From positions 1 through 38,634 of the forward strand of contig CAIKPM010000047.1 of the NCBI GenBank assembly GCA_903829325.1: 38,634 bases of DNA, read 5' to 3'. The DNA comes from an uncultured bacterium. Lineage in GTDB: Bacteria; Vulcanimicrobiota; Vulcanimicrobiia; Vulcanimicrobiales; Vulcanimicrobiaceae. The notes under the pieces are model-generated. The model had not been told where the DNA came from. It saw only the letters and a program-made list of their open reading frames with translations, and did no database searches. A program made the position numbers and the translations under genes. Below, piece by piece: positions 15,244 through 21,972 of this stretch; within the stretch, counting starts at the first letter, position 1, and every line of letters begins with the position of its first letter.

Positions 15244-15698
15244 AAGAACGGCCCAAACTCACGATTCTTTCCTTTGATGCGCTCCCCACCGCTGCGCAAG
15301 ACGAGCAACGCGAAGATCGTTCGCTCAATCTGGCTCTGCGCAGGCGCGGCGTGCAGAGCGAAGTCTTTCGTATTTTGCTTGGAGCTGATCGAGCGCAAGA
15401 GTCGCTTCTGGCTGAGCTGATCGCGGGCTTACCGCCGCATCCGTTAGTGTTCCTTGTGCGCGATCACGTGGAGCATCCGCTCGTGCTGCGTTTGCTCAGC
15501 GAGGCATTGCTTCGTGGGAAAGCCGAGATTCTTGTCGCCGCGAGCTCGCCTCCTCAGCTCGTCAGCGAAGGTGCAGAGCGAGTGAGCTTCTACCAGCTGC
15601 GCGCTGACGATCGGGGCGAAATCGAAGTCTTGGCTCAGGAGCTGCAGCAAAAGTCATCGTTTGTCGATACTTTGAAAGATGAACACCGAGCAGCCTGA
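15240..15698 (+). CDS. unknown protein coupled to the K+ channel gene
   Basis: A 152-residue soluble protein, GTG start overlapping the previous stop. It looks like an alpha/beta fold: LTILSFDAL (strand), an Arg-rich helix, HPLVFLVRDHVEHPLVLRLLSEALLRG, AEILVAAS (strand), then FYQLRADDRGEIEVLAQELQ. I do not recognise the family, but the alternation of hydrophobic strands with helices resembles small regulatory Rossmann-like domains. It overlaps the downstream K+ channel gene by 20 bases, so it could be a regulatory partner of the channel. That is inference from position only. Confidence 0.55.
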   Translation: MKERPKLTILSFDALPTAAQDEQREDRSLNLALRRRGVQSEVFRILLGADRAQESLLAELIAGLPPHPLVFLVRDHVEHPLVLRLLSEALLRGKAEILVAASSPPQLVSEGAERVSFYQLRADDRGEIEVLAQELQQKSSFVDTLKDEHRAA

Positions 15699-16485
15699 TC
15701 CAGAGATTCGCCTGCGCCGCTTTGAGCACTCTACGATCGTACCGATGTTAGTGCTCTCGGTGCTGTTTGTGCCTGTTCTCGTGATTCCATTGCTGTGCGA
15801 TCTGACCCCATGGCAGGACCATGTTTTTCAGGTCGTCGATTCGCTCATCTGGCTATGCTTTCTCACCGAATATGCGACCCGGCTCGTCTTGGCGCGCGAT
15901 CGGGTTCATTTTATGGCGACCAATCTGGTCGATCTCGCCATTATAGCCCTTCCGCTGATTCGCGTAGTCACGAGCATCCGGATGGTGCGCATCCTGCAGG
16001 CAAGCCGTATCGTTTTTGCTGGCCTGCGTGGCCGCAAGCTCGGTGACGATATGGTGAGTCACCATTCCGTCGCGGCGATGGCCTTCGTTATCGTGTCGCT
16101 CTCGGTGAGCGCAGCAGCCTTGGTCTATGACGTCGAGCGGCACGCGCCCGGTTCGCGCATCCACACCGTCGGTGACGCATTTTGGTGGGCGATCGTCACG
16201 GTGAGTACCGTGGGTTACGGCGATTTTTATCCGGTGACGACCGCCGGGCGGGTGATTGCCGGTTGCCTGATGTTTGTCGGCGTTTGCACGAGCGCACTTA
16301 TTGCGGCAGCTTTTGCCGCGATCTTCATTAAAGACAAGAACGAAGAAGAGTTCGATCCAAAGCTGGCTGCTTTAGCTGAACGGCTTGACCGAATCGACGG
16401 TCTGTTGTTACGGCTTGAGCTGACGGTCGAAAGCCACGAAGAAAAGGCTATCGAGCGTGAAGCTTTAGCCAAACAAAGTTCCTAG
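15679..16485 (+). CDS. voltage-gated potassium channel (six-segment ion transporter)
   Basis: A 268-residue inner-membrane K+ channel of the Kv type. S1 to S4 lie in residues 20-115; the S4 segment carries Arg95, Arg101, Arg104 and Arg110. S5 is at about 130-150, the pore helix (AFWWAIVTVS) leads into the selectivity filter TVGYGD at 177-182, and S6 runs to about 215. The C-terminus (ALAERLDRIDGLLLRLELTVE) is a coiled coil suited to tetramer assembly. Length resembles other compact prokaryotic Kv channels. It is the last gene of a same-strand run of unknown genes. K+ transport is a classic target of c-di-AMP, and cdaA lies nearby, but no direct c-di-AMP-binding domain (RCK_C) is present in this protein. 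Confidence 0.92.
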   Translation: MNTEQPDPEIRLRRFEHSTIVPMLVLSVLFVPVLVIPLLCDLTPWQDHVFQVVDSLIWLCFLTEYATRLVLARDRVHFMATNLVDLAIIALPLIRVVTSIRMVRILQASRIVFAGLRGRKLGDDMVSHHSVAAMAFVIVSLSVSAAALVYDVERHAPGSRIHTVGDAFWWAIVTVSTVGYGDFYPVTTAGRVIAGCLMFVGVCTSALIAAAFAAIFIKDKNEEEFDPKLAALAERLDRIDGLLLRLELTVESHEEKAIEREALAKQSS

Positions 16486-17749: not shown

Positions 17750-18115
17750 ATGGGTGGTGTGGTGAGTCAGCGTCAATACTTTCGTGAAGAGCTTCCCGAA
17801 GGGTGTGAAGTCTTTGCTCTGGAGACGGAGAGCGCCGCAGCAGCCCAGGAACTAGCCGAGGCTTTAACCGGGGCTGGTGGGCTCGGTGGGATTCATCATA
17901 CCACGCTTGACGGCTCGATATTGATTGTTCAATATATTGGCGATTTGTTTCTGCTGTTTGACTTTATCGCGAGCACCGGCGTTGCCACCAAACGACGTGC
18001 ACTGCTCCCGCTCGATGATGCGAATCTGATGCGAGTCGCCAGTGTCCTCTGGCGCGACGAGCAGCTGAGCCCCGAGCGGATTCTTGAGCGCGCTGCGCTG
18101 TTAGCCGCTTCGTGA
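17750..18115 (+). CDS. unknown protein coupled to cdaA
   Basis: A 121-residue cytoplasmic protein. I chose ATG 17750 because AAGGAA lies ten bases upstream and earlier codons would overlap divergent rsgA. It has an N-terminal acidic helix (ETESAAAAQELAEALTGAGG), a beta segment (TTLDGSILIVQYIGDLFLLFDFI), and a helical C-terminus. The family is not recognised. Its stop overlaps the GTG start of cdaA by four bases (GTGA), so it is translated together with the c-di-AMP synthase and could influence it. That is inference from coupling only. Confidence 0.6.
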   Translation: MGGVVSQRQYFREELPEGCEVFALETESAAAAQELAEALTGAGGLGGIHHTTLDGSILIVQYIGDLFLLFDFIASTGVATKRRALLPLDDANLMRVASVLWRDEQLSPERILERAALLAAS

Positions 18116-18957
18116 TCCTCAATACCGTCCTGCAAAACATCCACTGGAGTGACGGCGTGGATATTTTGGCCACTGCTGGGCTGATCTATTCGCTGCTGTT
18201 ACTGATTCGTGGTACCCGTGCGGTGCATATTCTTACCGGTTTACTGGTCTTAGGTGCGCTCCTGAGTCTGGCTGATTGGCTCAACTTAGTGGTAGTGGCT
18301 ACCCTGCTGCGGTTTGTGCTGGTAGGAACCGCAGTGACCTTGCCCATTGTCTTTCAACCCGAATTACGTCGTGCCTTAGAGTCACTCGGTCGGGGTGGGG
18401 TCTTTGGGCGTAGCGGTGTGCAGCACGATGCGGAACATAGTGCGCAGCAGTTAGCGCAGGCCGCGTTCGCCTTAGCCCAGCTGCACGTGGGTGGGCTGAT
18501 CGCGATTGAGGTCACCAGTGGTTTGCAAGATGTTGCGGACAGCGGCACGCGTTTAGATGCCATTTTGAGCAGCGATTTAGTGACGACCATCTTTTCGCCC
18601 AAGGCTGCGCTCCACGACGGTGCGGTGATCGTGCGTGGTGATCGCGTCGTTGCGGCTAGCTGTTTGCTTCCTTTAGCTGAGGGCGGCCCGGCGCATGTGC
18701 AAGGGCGTCGGTTTGGTACCCGGCATCGCGCGGCCTTAGGGTTATCCGAACAGACCGATGCGGTCGTGATCGTGATTTCTGAGGAGACGGGTCATATCGT
18801 TGTGGCCCGGGGCGGCAAACTTTCACGGCTCATTGATGAAGAAGAGCGCTTGCGCAAAATTATTCTGGCGTGTTCGCGACCCCAGCGGGTAAGGACGGCT
18901 GCCAAATCGTGGTTTGCCCAACTACGTGCTCGGTTGCCCGTCGGCGCGGTGTCATAA
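18112..18957 (+). CDS. cdaA: diadenylate cyclase CdaA
   Basis: Makes cyclic di-AMP from two ATP. Three N-terminal membrane helices (about 18-35, 37-54 and 57-82) anchor it in the inner membrane. The cytoplasmic DAC domain follows with both catalytic motifs: DGA at 169-171 (in ALHDGAVIVRGDRV) and RHR at 204-206 (in GTRHRAALGLSE). 281 residues is the usual CdaA length. It stands in the common order cdaA-cdaR-glmM, though cdaR is only a stub here. The GTG start overlaps the stop of the preceding unknown gene. A c-di-AMP riboswitch lies after glmM, closing a local regulatory circuit. Confidence 0.96.
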   Translation: MILNTVLQNIHWSDGVDILATAGLIYSLLLLIRGTRAVHILTGLLVLGALLSLADWLNLVVVATLLRFVLVGTAVTLPIVFQPELRRALESLGRGGVFGRSGVQHDAEHSAQQLAQAAFALAQLHVGGLIAIEVTSGLQDVADSGTRLDAILSSDLVTTIFSPKAALHDGAVIVRGDRVVAASCLLPLAEGGPAHVQGRRFGTRHRAALGLSEQTDAVVIVISEETGHIVVARGGKLSRLIDEEERLRKIILACSRPQRVRTAAKSWFAQLRARLPVGAVS

Positions 18958-19115
18958 TGCGCTTGAAGCTGCTCTCGTTGGGTTTGGCCTTGATTGCTTG
19001 GGGCTACTTACGCTTTGTGCCAAATCCACTGTTGCCCACAACTGTCGAGCATCGTGTGCTACCTCCGCTGAGCCATGCCGATGATCGCCGATCGTGCTTC
19101 CATGCTGGTGAGTGA
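18957..19115 (+). pseudogene. truncated cdaR (YbbR) stub
   Basis: A 52-residue frame whose ATG overlaps the cdaA stop (TAATG). The start, LKLLSLGLALIAWGYLRFVPNP, is the membrane anchor that opens YbbR/CdaR proteins, and TTVEHRVLPPL resembles the first strand of a YbbR domain. A full CdaR has several YbbR repeats; here the frame ends 12 bp before glmM. A shift of one base near 19074 would extend the reading to a TGA that overlaps the glmM ATG (ATGA), as expected for an old coupled gene, but still gives fewer than 60 residues. CdaR normally binds and controls CdaA outside the membrane; this stub could only provide a membrane helix. Confidence 0.6.
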
Positions 19116-19127
19116 AGGGAATTTACG

Positions 19128-20495
19128 ATGACACTGCGTTTTGGTACCGATGGCATCCGTGGGGTTGCCCATCTTGATCTGACCCCTGAATTCGCCGTCC
19201 GCTTCGGGCGGGCGTTAGCGGCGCATCTTCCTCCTGGCCCGGTGTTGCTCGCTCGCGATACGCGCCTTTCGGGTGATATGCTCGAAGGTGCCTTGTTGGC
19301 AGGCTTACTGACGGCGGGGCGCAGCGTGGTTTCGGCTGGGGTTATGCCGACACCGGCGTTGGCATTTCTGACCAGGATCAGCGATGCGGTTTTAGGCGTG
19401 ATGATCAGCGCGTCGCATAATCCGGTCGATGATAACGGCTTCAAGTGCTTTGATGGGAGTGGCTTCAAGCTCTCCGATGAGACCGAACGGGCGATCGAGC
19501 AAGATCTTGTATCACCGACCCTACCTCGTGCGCTGCCTGCGACGCATCCCGGGTTGCGTCGTGATACCACCCTGGTAGAGCGTTATTCAGCGGAGATTCT
19601 GCGCGGTGCGACGAGCCTGCAGGGCTATACGGTCGTGATCGATGCGGCCTTCGGCGCAGCATATGCGGTGGCGCCTGCCGCCTTTACGGCCTTGGGGGCG
19701 ACCGTCCATGTGCTCAACGGTGAAGCCGATGGTGCGCGGATCAATGTTGATTGTGGGGCGACCGATCTGCGGATGCTCGCTGCCCGGGTACGCGAAATCG
19801 GCGGCGAGCGGGTGGTTGGAGTTGCCTTCGATGGTGATGCTGACCGGGTGCGCTTTGTCGATGAGCGAGGCACGAGCGTCGATGGGGATGCGATTCTGTT
19901 GGCCTTAGCTCGTGATCTGCACCAACGTGGTGAGCTGCCCGGGGCAACGGTCGTCGGCACGGTGATGAGCAACCTCGCTTTTGAACGCGGCCTCGAGCGT
20001 GAGTCTTTGCACCTACTGCGCACGGCGGTTGGTGATCGCTATATTTTGCAGGCAATGCAAGAACATGGCCTACGTTTTGGCGGCGAGCCATCTGGCCATA
20101 TTATCGACTTAGCTCGCAATACCACCGGCGACGGCCCTGGTACTGCGATTGCTGTCGTTTCACTGTTGGCTCGTCAGCACATTGCTTTGAGCGAGCTGGT
20201 GGGCGACTATCGACCCTACCCGCAGGTACTGGTGAACGTACCGTTGGCTCGGCGTAGTGCTTTGCACGAATCTCCTCGGGTGCTTGCTGCTGTCGCCGCA
20301 GCGCAAGCGCGTCTTGGCCCTGAGGGGCGTATTCTGATTCGGCCGTCGGGGACAGAGCCGCTCATGCGCGTGATGGTCGAAGGTGCTGATGAACACGCGG
20401 TCTCGCGTTTAGCGCACGAGTTAGCTGAAGAGATTCGCCTGTTGGCAGAGGAAGAAAAGGGGATTGGGGTAGCAGCGCAAATCTCCCCGGTGTAG
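19128..20495 (+). CDS. glmM: phosphoglucosamine mutase
   Basis: Converts glucosamine-6-phosphate to glucosamine-1-phosphate for UDP-GlcNAc, the precursor of peptidoglycan and lipid A. The 455-residue protein starts FGTDGIRGVAH, has the phosphoserine loop ISASHNP with Ser96 in residues 93-99, the metal loop DGDADR at 235-240, GGEPSGHII as the sugar-binding loop, and RPSGTEPLMRVMVE for phosphate binding near the C-terminus. GAAGGGAA provides a good ribosome site. In other bacteria GlmM physically inhibits CdaA, so its place after cdaA is meaningful. Confidence 0.97.
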   Translation: MTLRFGTDGIRGVAHLDLTPEFAVRFGRALAAHLPPGPVLLARDTRLSGDMLEGALLAGLLTAGRSVVSAGVMPTPALAFLTRISDAVLGVMISASHNPVDDNGFKCFDGSGFKLSDETERAIEQDLVSPTLPRALPATHPGLRRDTTLVERYSAEILRGATSLQGYTVVIDAAFGAAYAVAPAAFTALGATVHVLNGEADGARINVDCGATDLRMLAARVREIGGERVVGVAFDGDADRVRFVDERGTSVDGDAILLALARDLHQRGELPGATVVGTVMSNLAFERGLERESLHLLRTAVGDRYILQAMQEHGLRFGGEPSGHIIDLARNTTGDGPGTAIAVVSLLARQHIALSELVGDYRPYPQVLVNVPLARRSALHESPRVLAAVAAAQARLGPEGRILIRPSGTEPLMRVMVEGADEHAVSRLAHELAEEIRLLAEEEKGIGVAAQISPV

Positions 20496-20529
20496 TTTGC
20501 TGTGTATACAGCCGACAATATATGAGGGG

Positions 20530-20672
20530 GCATCGTGATGCCCTAAGAGCCGAGTTTGAAGCCGATGCTTCGAAGCGGGGGACATACCATCGGGGTGAAC
20601 GTGATCGCCGTAGATCGCGAGGGCATTCTTTCAGCCCTAATCCGTCAACTAACCCCGTAGGCTGCCGAAAGA
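20530..20672 (+). ncRNA. cyclic di-AMP riboswitch (ydaO-yuaA type)
   Basis: The leader of the NlpC/P60 gene contains the conserved blocks of this riboswitch in the right order: GCGGGGGA (20575-20582), ATCGGGGTGAAC (20589-20600), a GATCGCGAGGG segment, CTTTCAGCCC, then AATCCGTCAACTAACCCCG and GTAGGC ending at 20662. The Shine-Dalgarno GAGGAG (20671-20676) follows nine bases after GTAGGC and there is no T-tract terminator, so control is more likely by hiding the ribosome site than by termination. In known cases c-di-AMP lowers expression of the downstream gene, very often a wall hydrolase, exactly as here. Boundaries are approximate. Confidence 0.93.
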
Positions 20673-20681
20673 GGAGTCTAT

Positions 20682-21458
20682 TTGCGTTTTCTCATAGCGG
20701 GCGCCTGCGTATTTGCGCTGACGGTGGGCTTGTTCTTGCCTGCCTCGGCCGATGCACCGGCAGCTCAGTCCAACACGCTTGTTGGATCAGCTTCCAGTTT
20801 TGAAGTGACAGCGAATGGCGATGCTGATGTTACCCCGGCTAGTTTTGAAGTAGCAGCTGTTCCAGGAATTGCCACTGTTGCACTAGCGAGTAAATCGCCC
20901 ACGATCAGTGCCCCAACGTTCGGCGCAGATCAAATGATGTGGAATGTCGCGGTCCCTGTGCCCGCTTCCAAGCCTCTTAGCCCAGCGGCTAGCGCACCGA
21001 GCGCGCAAGCGCCATCATCTGCTTTGGGTTCTTTCGCTGGCAGTCTTATTCGGCAGACGCGCGGGATCGCGAGTCAGCTGACCGCGAGCGCTCTGCGCTT
21101 TGTTGGAACACCGTACATGTTCGGTGGCACTTCGTCGTATGGCTTTGATTGCTCTGGCTATGTGCAACATGTGTTTGCCCTGTTTGGAATCAATCTGCCG
21201 CGAACGGCCGATGAACAGTATTTAGTCGGACGCCACGTTTCGCAACGCGACATGGTCCGTGGTGATCTGGTTTTTTTCCAGACCTACGCGGCTGGCGTGT
21301 CACACGTTGGGATCTATTTAGGCAACGGCGAGTTCGTGCACAGTGGCAGTCGGGGCGTGCAGGTAAGTAATCTGAGCGATGATTACTGGTCGACTCGTTA
21401 CGTTGGCGCAACGCACATTCTCGGTGCGAGCGTGGTTGCTGCTCACTTTGTAAACTAG
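20682..21458 (+). CDS. secreted NlpC/P60 peptidoglycan hydrolase
   Basis: A 258-residue exported endopeptidase that cuts peptide stems of peptidoglycan. TTG start at 20682, six bases after GAGGAG. Signal peptide to about residue 23, then a Ser/Ala/Pro-rich spacer to about 120, then the NlpC/P60 domain: catalytic Cys157 in DCSGYV, His208 in SHVGIYLGNG, and His220 in FVHSGS as the third polar residue. The gene is directly behind a c-di-AMP riboswitch and downstream of cdaA-glmM, so wall cutting is tied to the second messenger. No SH3 or LysM domain is visible. Confidence 0.93.
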   Translation: MRFLIAGACVFALTVGLFLPASADAPAAQSNTLVGSASSFEVTANGDADVTPASFEVAAVPGIATVALASKSPTISAPTFGADQMMWNVAVPVPASKPLSPAASAPSAQAPSSALGSFAGSLIRQTRGIASQLTASALRFVGTPYMFGGTSSYGFDCSGYVQHVFALFGINLPRTADEQYLVGRHVSQRDMVRGDLVFFQTYAAGVSHVGIYLGNGEFVHSGSRGVQVSNLSDDYWSTRYVGATHILGASVVAAHFVN

Positions 21459-21465
21459 ACCTATC

Positions 21466-21804
21466 ATGTCCGAAGAAGAAGAACGACAAACAGCCGCTTT
21501 GTCATACCTCTTCTTTCCGCTTGCGCTCCCGGTGTTGCTTGATACCGGGAGCGAGCCGCGTAGTGCGTGGGCGCGCGCTCACGCTCGGCACGCTTTCTGC
21601 TTTGGTTTGCTTGCTTGTTGTCTACTGGCGGGAATCGCCCTCATTCCGCTCGTGTTGGTTGTGTCGATCGGACTGGATGTACAGAGTATTCTCTTGCTAT
21701 ACCCAATCTCGTTTGTCGTGGATCTTGTTGCGGTGGGTGTCGTGCTTTGGTATGGAATTCGTGCCGCGCGGGGTGCAGCGCGAGGAGAAGTGAGCCGATA
21801 CTGA
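21466..21804 (+). CDS. DUF4870/Tic20-like small membrane protein
   Basis: A 112-residue integral membrane protein, starting seven bases after the NlpC/P60 stop and so in the same riboswitch-controlled transcript. The opening EEEERQTAALSYLFFPLALPVLL, then RAHARHAFCFGLLACC, matches the pattern of DUF4870 proteins (helix, conserved R-x-H-A-x-x-A before the second helix). Three membrane segments lie at about 11-24, 43-66 and 76-96. Function of the family is unknown. Confidence 0.75.
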   Translation: MSEEEERQTAALSYLFFPLALPVLLDTGSEPRSAWARAHARHAFCFGLLACCLLAGIALIPLVLVVSIGLDVQSILLLYPISFVVDLVAVGVVLWYGIRAARGAARGEVSRY

Positions 21805-21831: not shown

Positions 21832-21904
21832 TGGGGCGTCGCCAAGTTGGTAAGGCACCAGATTTTGATTCTGGCATGCGTTGGTTCGAGTCCAGCCGCC
21901 CCAG
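21832..21904 (+). tRNA. tRNA-Gln (anticodon UUG)
   Basis: The acceptor stem TGGGGCG/CGCCCCA pairs fully, the anticodon stem CCAGA/TCTGG encloses loop TTTTGAT (anticodon TTG), and the T arm GTTGG/CCAGC encloses TTCGAGT. The U1-A72 pair is usual in bacterial tRNA-Gln. CCA is encoded at 21905-21907. A terminator follows immediately. Confidence 0.97.
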
Positions 21905-21913
21905 CCATATCTC

Positions 21914-21947
21914 CACCCTCCGCGGCGTTTACGCGGAGGGTGTTTTT
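21914..21947 (+). terminator. intrinsic terminator after tRNA-Gln
   Basis: CACCCTCCGCG (21914-21924) pairs perfectly with CGCGGAGGGTG (21932-21942), an 11-bp stem with a seven-base loop, followed by TTTTT. It closes the tRNA-Gln transcript, and probably any read-through from the NlpC/P60 operon. Confidence 0.95.
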
Positions 21948-21972
21948 GTATACTGGAGGCGAGAGGAGCATT

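Follow-up and report, generated by a model that had tools for sequence, protein, structure and literature searches.

A c-di-AMP riboswitch within the cdaA operon of Candidatus Eremiobacterota: a probable translational OFF switch on an NlpC/P60 gene

Results

A c-di-AMP riboswitch lies between glmM and an NlpC/P60 gene

The window analysed here, a stretch of 38,634 nucleotides, is a whole contig (G000:C47) of a metagenome-assembled genome from Candidatus Eremiobacterota (Vulcanimicrobiota), a little-studied group of soil bacteria. The genome, G000, is 1.89 Mb in size and 96% complete. The following elements lie on the forward strand of the window:

17750-18115 (+): gene for a 121-aa protein with no family assigned, overlapping the start of cdaA through GTGA
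18112-18957 (+): cdaA, membrane diadenylate cyclase (c-di-AMP synthase; PF02457, TIGR00159)
18957-19115 (+): micro-CdaR, a 52-aa ORF recognised with an HMM built from the CdaR proteins of relatives
19128-20495 (+): glmM, phosphoglucosamine mutase (TIGR01455)
20538-20678 (+): c-di-AMP riboswitch aptamer, ydaO class (RF00379)
20548-20551 with 20660-20663 (+): aptamer P1 helix, from the RF00379 match
20626-20632 (+): putative pseudoknot 5' strand UUCUUUC in a hairpin loop, from loop-tail complementarity
20667-20673 (+): putative pseudoknot 3' strand GAAAGAG, overlapping the first two Shine-Dalgarno bases
20672-20676 (+): Shine-Dalgarno sequence AGGAG, 5 nt ahead of a UUG start codon
20682-21458 (+): predicted exported NlpC/P60 endopeptidase (PF00877), with its UUG start at 20682
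21466-21804 (+): small DUF4870-like membrane protein (PF09685, below cut-off), starting 8 nt past the nlpC stop
21832-21907 (+): tRNA-Gln (TTG), probably the last element of the same transcript
21914-21949 (+): intrinsic-terminator-like hairpin of 11 pairs followed by a T run, the likely end of the transcription unit

The original prediction had named four parts in this order, a synthase, GlmM, a ydaO riboswitch and a wall hydrolase, and profile searches bear out both the identities and the order, with the three proteins above curated cut-offs and the RNA above its gathering threshold. CdaA matches PF02457 (DAC; 125.9 bits) and the equivalog TIGR00159 (206.5 bits, cut-off 188.8), and its translation contains the DGA and RHR motifs; a match to the N-terminal transmembrane domain CdaA_N scores 21.7 bits against the PF19293 cut-off of 23.8. 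GlmM reaches 490.6 bits with the equivalog TIGR01455 (cut-off 447.55) and the NlpC/P60 protein 118.8 bits with PF00877 (cut-off 23), the latter carrying FDCSGY and SHVGIYLG with the catalytic Cys and His. The RF00379 match on the forward strand is full length (positions 1-134) and not truncated, with a score of 72.7 bits, about twice the gathering threshold of 38, and an E-value of 3.6e-15; the span first proposed for it, 20530-20672, was off by a few bases only. A covariance score below threshold had been named in the original prediction as grounds for refuting it, and the match passes this check. From its class, we infer that this RNA has c-di-AMP as its ligand. A DUF4870-like gene had also been proposed downstream, and a gene is indeed present there, but its family score with PF09685 (21.5 bits) falls below the cut-off of 25. 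Similar second genes follow nlpC in many relatives, as judged by inspection.

Two small genes had been overlooked, the 52-aa CdaR remnant and the 121-aa gene overlapping the cdaA start. The 121-aa protein has no family match in Pfam or NCBIfam, and in 29 Eremiobacterota loci its orthologues end no more than 30 nt from the match to cdaA. Its AlphaFold model (pLDDT 76) predicts a ferredoxin-like alpha/beta domain, and a fold search returned generic ferredoxin-like matches only (best E 0.024). About 1.3 kb upstream of this gene, at 15679-16485, the window also carries an ion-channel gene (Ion_trans_2, Ion_trans); K+ is often under c-di-AMP control.

The cluster probably forms a single transcript that extends from the 121-aa gene through tRNA-Gln, as judged from the arrangement of signals in the sequence. 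Between 17700 and 22000 the only strong terminator-like site is the one after tRNA-Gln, at 21914, while promoter-like matches do not rise above background (1 found versus 1.7 expected); a promoter within glmM is possible. The aptamer begins 43 nt after the glmM stop codon (11-224 nt in relatives), an intercistronic position that would fit a translational control limited to the last genes.

The cluster may account for almost all of the c-di-AMP system recognisable in its genome

A search of the entire genome recovered one DAC protein, one RF00379 switch and one NlpC/P60 protein. The sole DHH protein found, encoded on another contig (G000:C41:28212-28631; L205), joins RbfA and an NrnA/DhhP-type DHH-DHHA1 phosphoesterase within a single open frame, and is the best phosphodiesterase candidate. 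TrkA_C (RCK_C) and PgpH-type 7TM-HD domains were absent from the same search, provisionally so in an assembly that is 96% complete. The cluster from cdaA to nlpC may thus represent nearly all of the c-di-AMP system that can be recognised in this genome. The original prediction went further and described a self-contained circuit. Synthase, GlmM, sensor and output do lie together, but the label overstates the case, since cdaA-cdaR-glmM is simply the standard make-up of a cdaA operon (PMC10243994), inhibition of CdaA by GlmM has been shown in Firmicutes only (PMC10243994), and the cluster contains no c-di-AMP phosphodiesterase gene.

CdaR is reduced to a transmembrane segment

In relatives, a CdaR of about 210-220 aa is encoded between cdaA and glmM, where the window has 170 nt. 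The 52-aa ORF found in this interval matches an HMM of the relatives' CdaR over residues 6-40 only (12.8 bits); the YbbR domains that lie outside the membrane are absent from it, and PF07949 has no match anywhere in the genome. The same reduction is seen in a second genome, G005 (L066; 28.7 bits over profile positions 1-48). Because G142, a congener of G005, retains the YbbR region, and because G000 and G005 stand far apart in a single-gene FastTree of GlmM, we rejected a single shared truncation event; the two reductions are likely to be independent losses. In Firmicutes, CdaR contacts CdaA through transmembrane segments (PMC10243994), so what the window retains is the part for which contact with CdaA is reported. 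This micro-CdaR may still control CdaA; the plain alternative is a degeneration in progress.

Linkage of the switch to cdaA is a trait of the lineage

Conservation of this layout across the class had also gone unnoticed in the original prediction. Our phylum sample comprised 148 genomes, with the switch in 98 and the cyclase in 130. Ninety-five tabulated genomes have both, on one contig in 79 cases, and in 78 of these 79 the switch lies 1716-4269 nt downstream of cdaA, in the same orientation; in the remaining genomes with both, cyclase and switch are mostly on different contigs. The usual order in relatives is cdaA, cdaR, glmM, switch, nlpC, and the longer gaps between cdaA and the switch are mainly due to a further gene, about 640-660 aa in length, that some genomes carry between glmM and the switch. 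The cdaA-linked switch is thus a lineage trait, conserved far beyond chance.

Conserved closeness could nonetheless be inherited passively. An nlpC-switch pair may have come to lie next to an ordinary cdaA operon in some ancestor, and descent alone may have kept the two together, their closeness meaning nothing for regulation; this reading is compatible with the same translational switch. We consider this a real possibility that nevertheless falls short of an even chance. c-di-AMP diffuses, so that closeness is unnecessary, and switch and cyclase are apart in G010, G021 and G037; in the first two of these it is the switch-nlpC pair that has moved away from cdaA, which indicates that adjacency is not required for function. 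Against passive inheritance, the position has been held over dozens of genera despite insertions and other changes of neighbours, and cyclase and switch are absent together from four genomes (G029, G030, G031 and G039, each 95% complete or more) among the first 41, of which 33 have the switch and 37 the cyclase.

The pattern fails outside this class: in four members of the phylum from other families (G042, G044, G045 and G064) switch and cyclase are on different contigs, and inspection points to alanine racemase, KdpA, a lytic transglycosylase and a universal-stress-like protein as the switch targets. As a wider comparison we used 26 genomes reached through more distant cdaA matches (Firmicutes, Chloroflexi, Bacteroidota and others), in which none of the 23 switches, from seven genomes, lies inside the cdaA-centred loci (up to 8 kb on each side where the contig allows).

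Further c-di-AMP switches were seen beside other genes. In another family of the same class (L040, L054, L060, L063, L064 and L065), extra copies precede secreted GHL15-like proteins, of which one was scanned and scored below the Pfam cut-off while the others are similar by inspection, and PF04185-type phosphoesterases. At L174 (G103) and L175 (G080) a c-di-AMP switch stands ahead of a glycosyltransferase gene, identified by a Pfam match for L174 and by inspection for L175.

Spacing, a putative pseudoknot and a UUG start codon point to control of translation

In 61 of 63 loci, P1 ends 12-24 nt short of the start codon. A terminator would not fit into this gap, and we therefore rejected terminator-based control in this class. 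Action on transcription could take other routes, namely ligand-dependent pausing, Rho or RNA decay, and such action has some precedent: the Streptomyces rpfA switch is reported to give premature termination (PMC10117811), and in distant members of the phylum terminator-like hairpins were seen by inspection after the aptamer, before kdpA in G044 and before the transglycosylase gene in G045. Nevertheless, the same short gap, a scan that found no terminator-like hairpin at the window switch, and a closest precedent that was measured as translational (PMC9960051) make a transcriptional mode unlikely here.

How the aptamer might instead reach the ribosome-binding site is suggested by its loop and tail. 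The crystallised ydaO RNA construct has the loop CUCCUUCG and the tail CGAAGGAG and a fold that includes a pseudoknot (PMC5393176); by our own reading, the complementarity of these two segments corresponds to that pseudoknot. The window loop at 20626-20632 is complementary to the tail at 20667-20673 at the same position, and such complementarity recurs in nearly all relatives. When the loops of 50 distinct switches were paired in free register with their own or with swapped tails, the mean score was 15.06 versus 13.90, and 0 of 5000 permutations reached the observed value, in a plain permutation that ignores kinship between the switches. Single cases show compensatory changes of loop and tail, for example UCUUUCC/GGAAAGA and UUCUUCC/GGAAGAA. 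Covariation in a fixed register, from a MAFFT alignment of loops and tails, is weak (80% paired versus 77% after shuffling, a value reached by 15 of 2000 shuffles), because the register of the pseudoknot differs from species to species by one or two bases; the free-register permutation is the stronger test. A pseudoknot in these switches is thus supported mainly by analogy with the known structure of the class. It adjoins or overlaps the Shine-Dalgarno sequence, and the overlap amounts to only about two bases, so occlusion would be partly steric. In plain ViennaRNA folding most of the Shine-Dalgarno site is base-paired even when no ligand is present; as a test of mechanism, folding with and without a forced aptamer was uninformative, both the pseudoknot and the ligand being outside its model.

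Of 63 switch genes, 51 have UUG as their first possible start codon, versus 7 of 62 glmM starts in related loci (Fisher p 7e-16, with kinship ignored), a conservation that could come partly from shared descent. A weak UUG start would make initiation dependent on the Shine-Dalgarno sequence, and hence on the switch.

A proposed translational OFF switch on nlpC

We consider it probable that this is an intercistronic c-di-AMP riboswitch in the cdaA operon that acts as a translational OFF switch on nlpC, a mode of control within the operon that the original prediction had not considered. The proposal starts from direct evidence for the aptamer, the gene identities, the conserved linkage, the absence of space for a terminator and the conservation of UUG. 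Ligand binding and co-transcription, the direction of control and its effect on the wall would then connect as follows. CdaA, encoded on the same mRNA, would make c-di-AMP; at high c-di-AMP the aptamer would fold and the pseudoknot would lock the tail beside and over the beginning of the Shine-Dalgarno sequence; ribosomes would fail to initiate at the weak UUG codon, and less NlpC/P60 wall hydrolase would be made. Through coupling, the downstream membrane gene would also be expressed less under these conditions. When c-di-AMP drops, the pseudoknot would open and the hydrolase would be produced.

The opposite polarity, an ON switch giving more hydrolase at high c-di-AMP, is very improbable: we found nothing specific in its favour, the c-di-AMP switches described in PMC9960051 and PMC6488665 are OFF switches, and a ligand-bound pseudoknot would cover the landing site of the ribosome. 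The rule put forward in the original prediction, that high c-di-AMP means less wall cutting, fits the precedents of C. glutamicum nlpC (PMC9960051) and Streptomyces rpfA (PMC10117811).

Across the class, the mRNA for the synthase holds a sensor of the synthase's product at a fixed site between two cistrons. An extension of this that we hold to be rather unlikely is that ligand binding also affects how stable the cdaA-glmM part of the mRNA is or how well it is translated, and that CdaR, shrunk independently in two lineages to a transmembrane micro-protein, perhaps still controls CdaA.

Discussion

The closest known system is RSnlpC of Corynebacterium glutamicum (cg2402; PMC9960051), in which, as in the window, an RF00379-class aptamer directly precedes an NlpC/P60 gene with no terminator. 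It is a translational OFF switch, for which its authors propose a pseudoknot-blocked ribosome site; the reporter protein was repressed with mRNA unchanged, and the effect was confined to the first gene (PMC9960051). The two systems differ in context: C. glutamicum uses the cyclase DisA, whose gene lies elsewhere together with radA, and its switch stands at the head of a separate operon of seven genes (PMC9960051), whereas in the window it lies between glmM and nlpC, behind cdaA. The Streptomyces rpfA switch likewise lowers a wall hydrolase, the direction that we infer for the window, but the hydrolase is a different one, its control is reported to be transcriptional, and the cyclase is DisA rather than CdaA (PMC10117811). 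In Bacillus, the ydaO/kimA and kdpFABC switches share the aptamer class and the OFF mode, but use transcription terminators and have K+ transport targets (PMC6488665).

On the side of the synthase, the Firmicute cdaA-cdaR-glmM operon has the gene order of the window, but is described as three genes, with neither riboswitch nor hydrolase, and its CdaR is full length; in lactic acid bacteria this protein carries three or four YbbR domains (PMC10243994). Inhibition of CdaA by GlmM is likewise known from this group alone. The class of the sensor, a hydrolase as its target and the translational OFF mode were thus already known, and it is the linkage to the synthase operon that is new. In the literature that we searched, which did not extend to subscription papers, we found no description of a c-di-AMP riboswitch inside a cdaA operon, and no mention of c-di-AMP or a riboswitch together with Eremiobacterota.

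The transmembrane-only CdaR offers a natural minimal version of the protein with which to find out what part of it acts on CdaA. In the literature consulted, c-di-AMP riboswitches control target genes that lie away from the cyclase; here a little-studied lineage keeps synthase, partner enzyme, sensor and wall hydrolase together as one conserved unit, and this unit predicts a simple rule for wall remodelling, by which high c-di-AMP would restrain the hydrolase.
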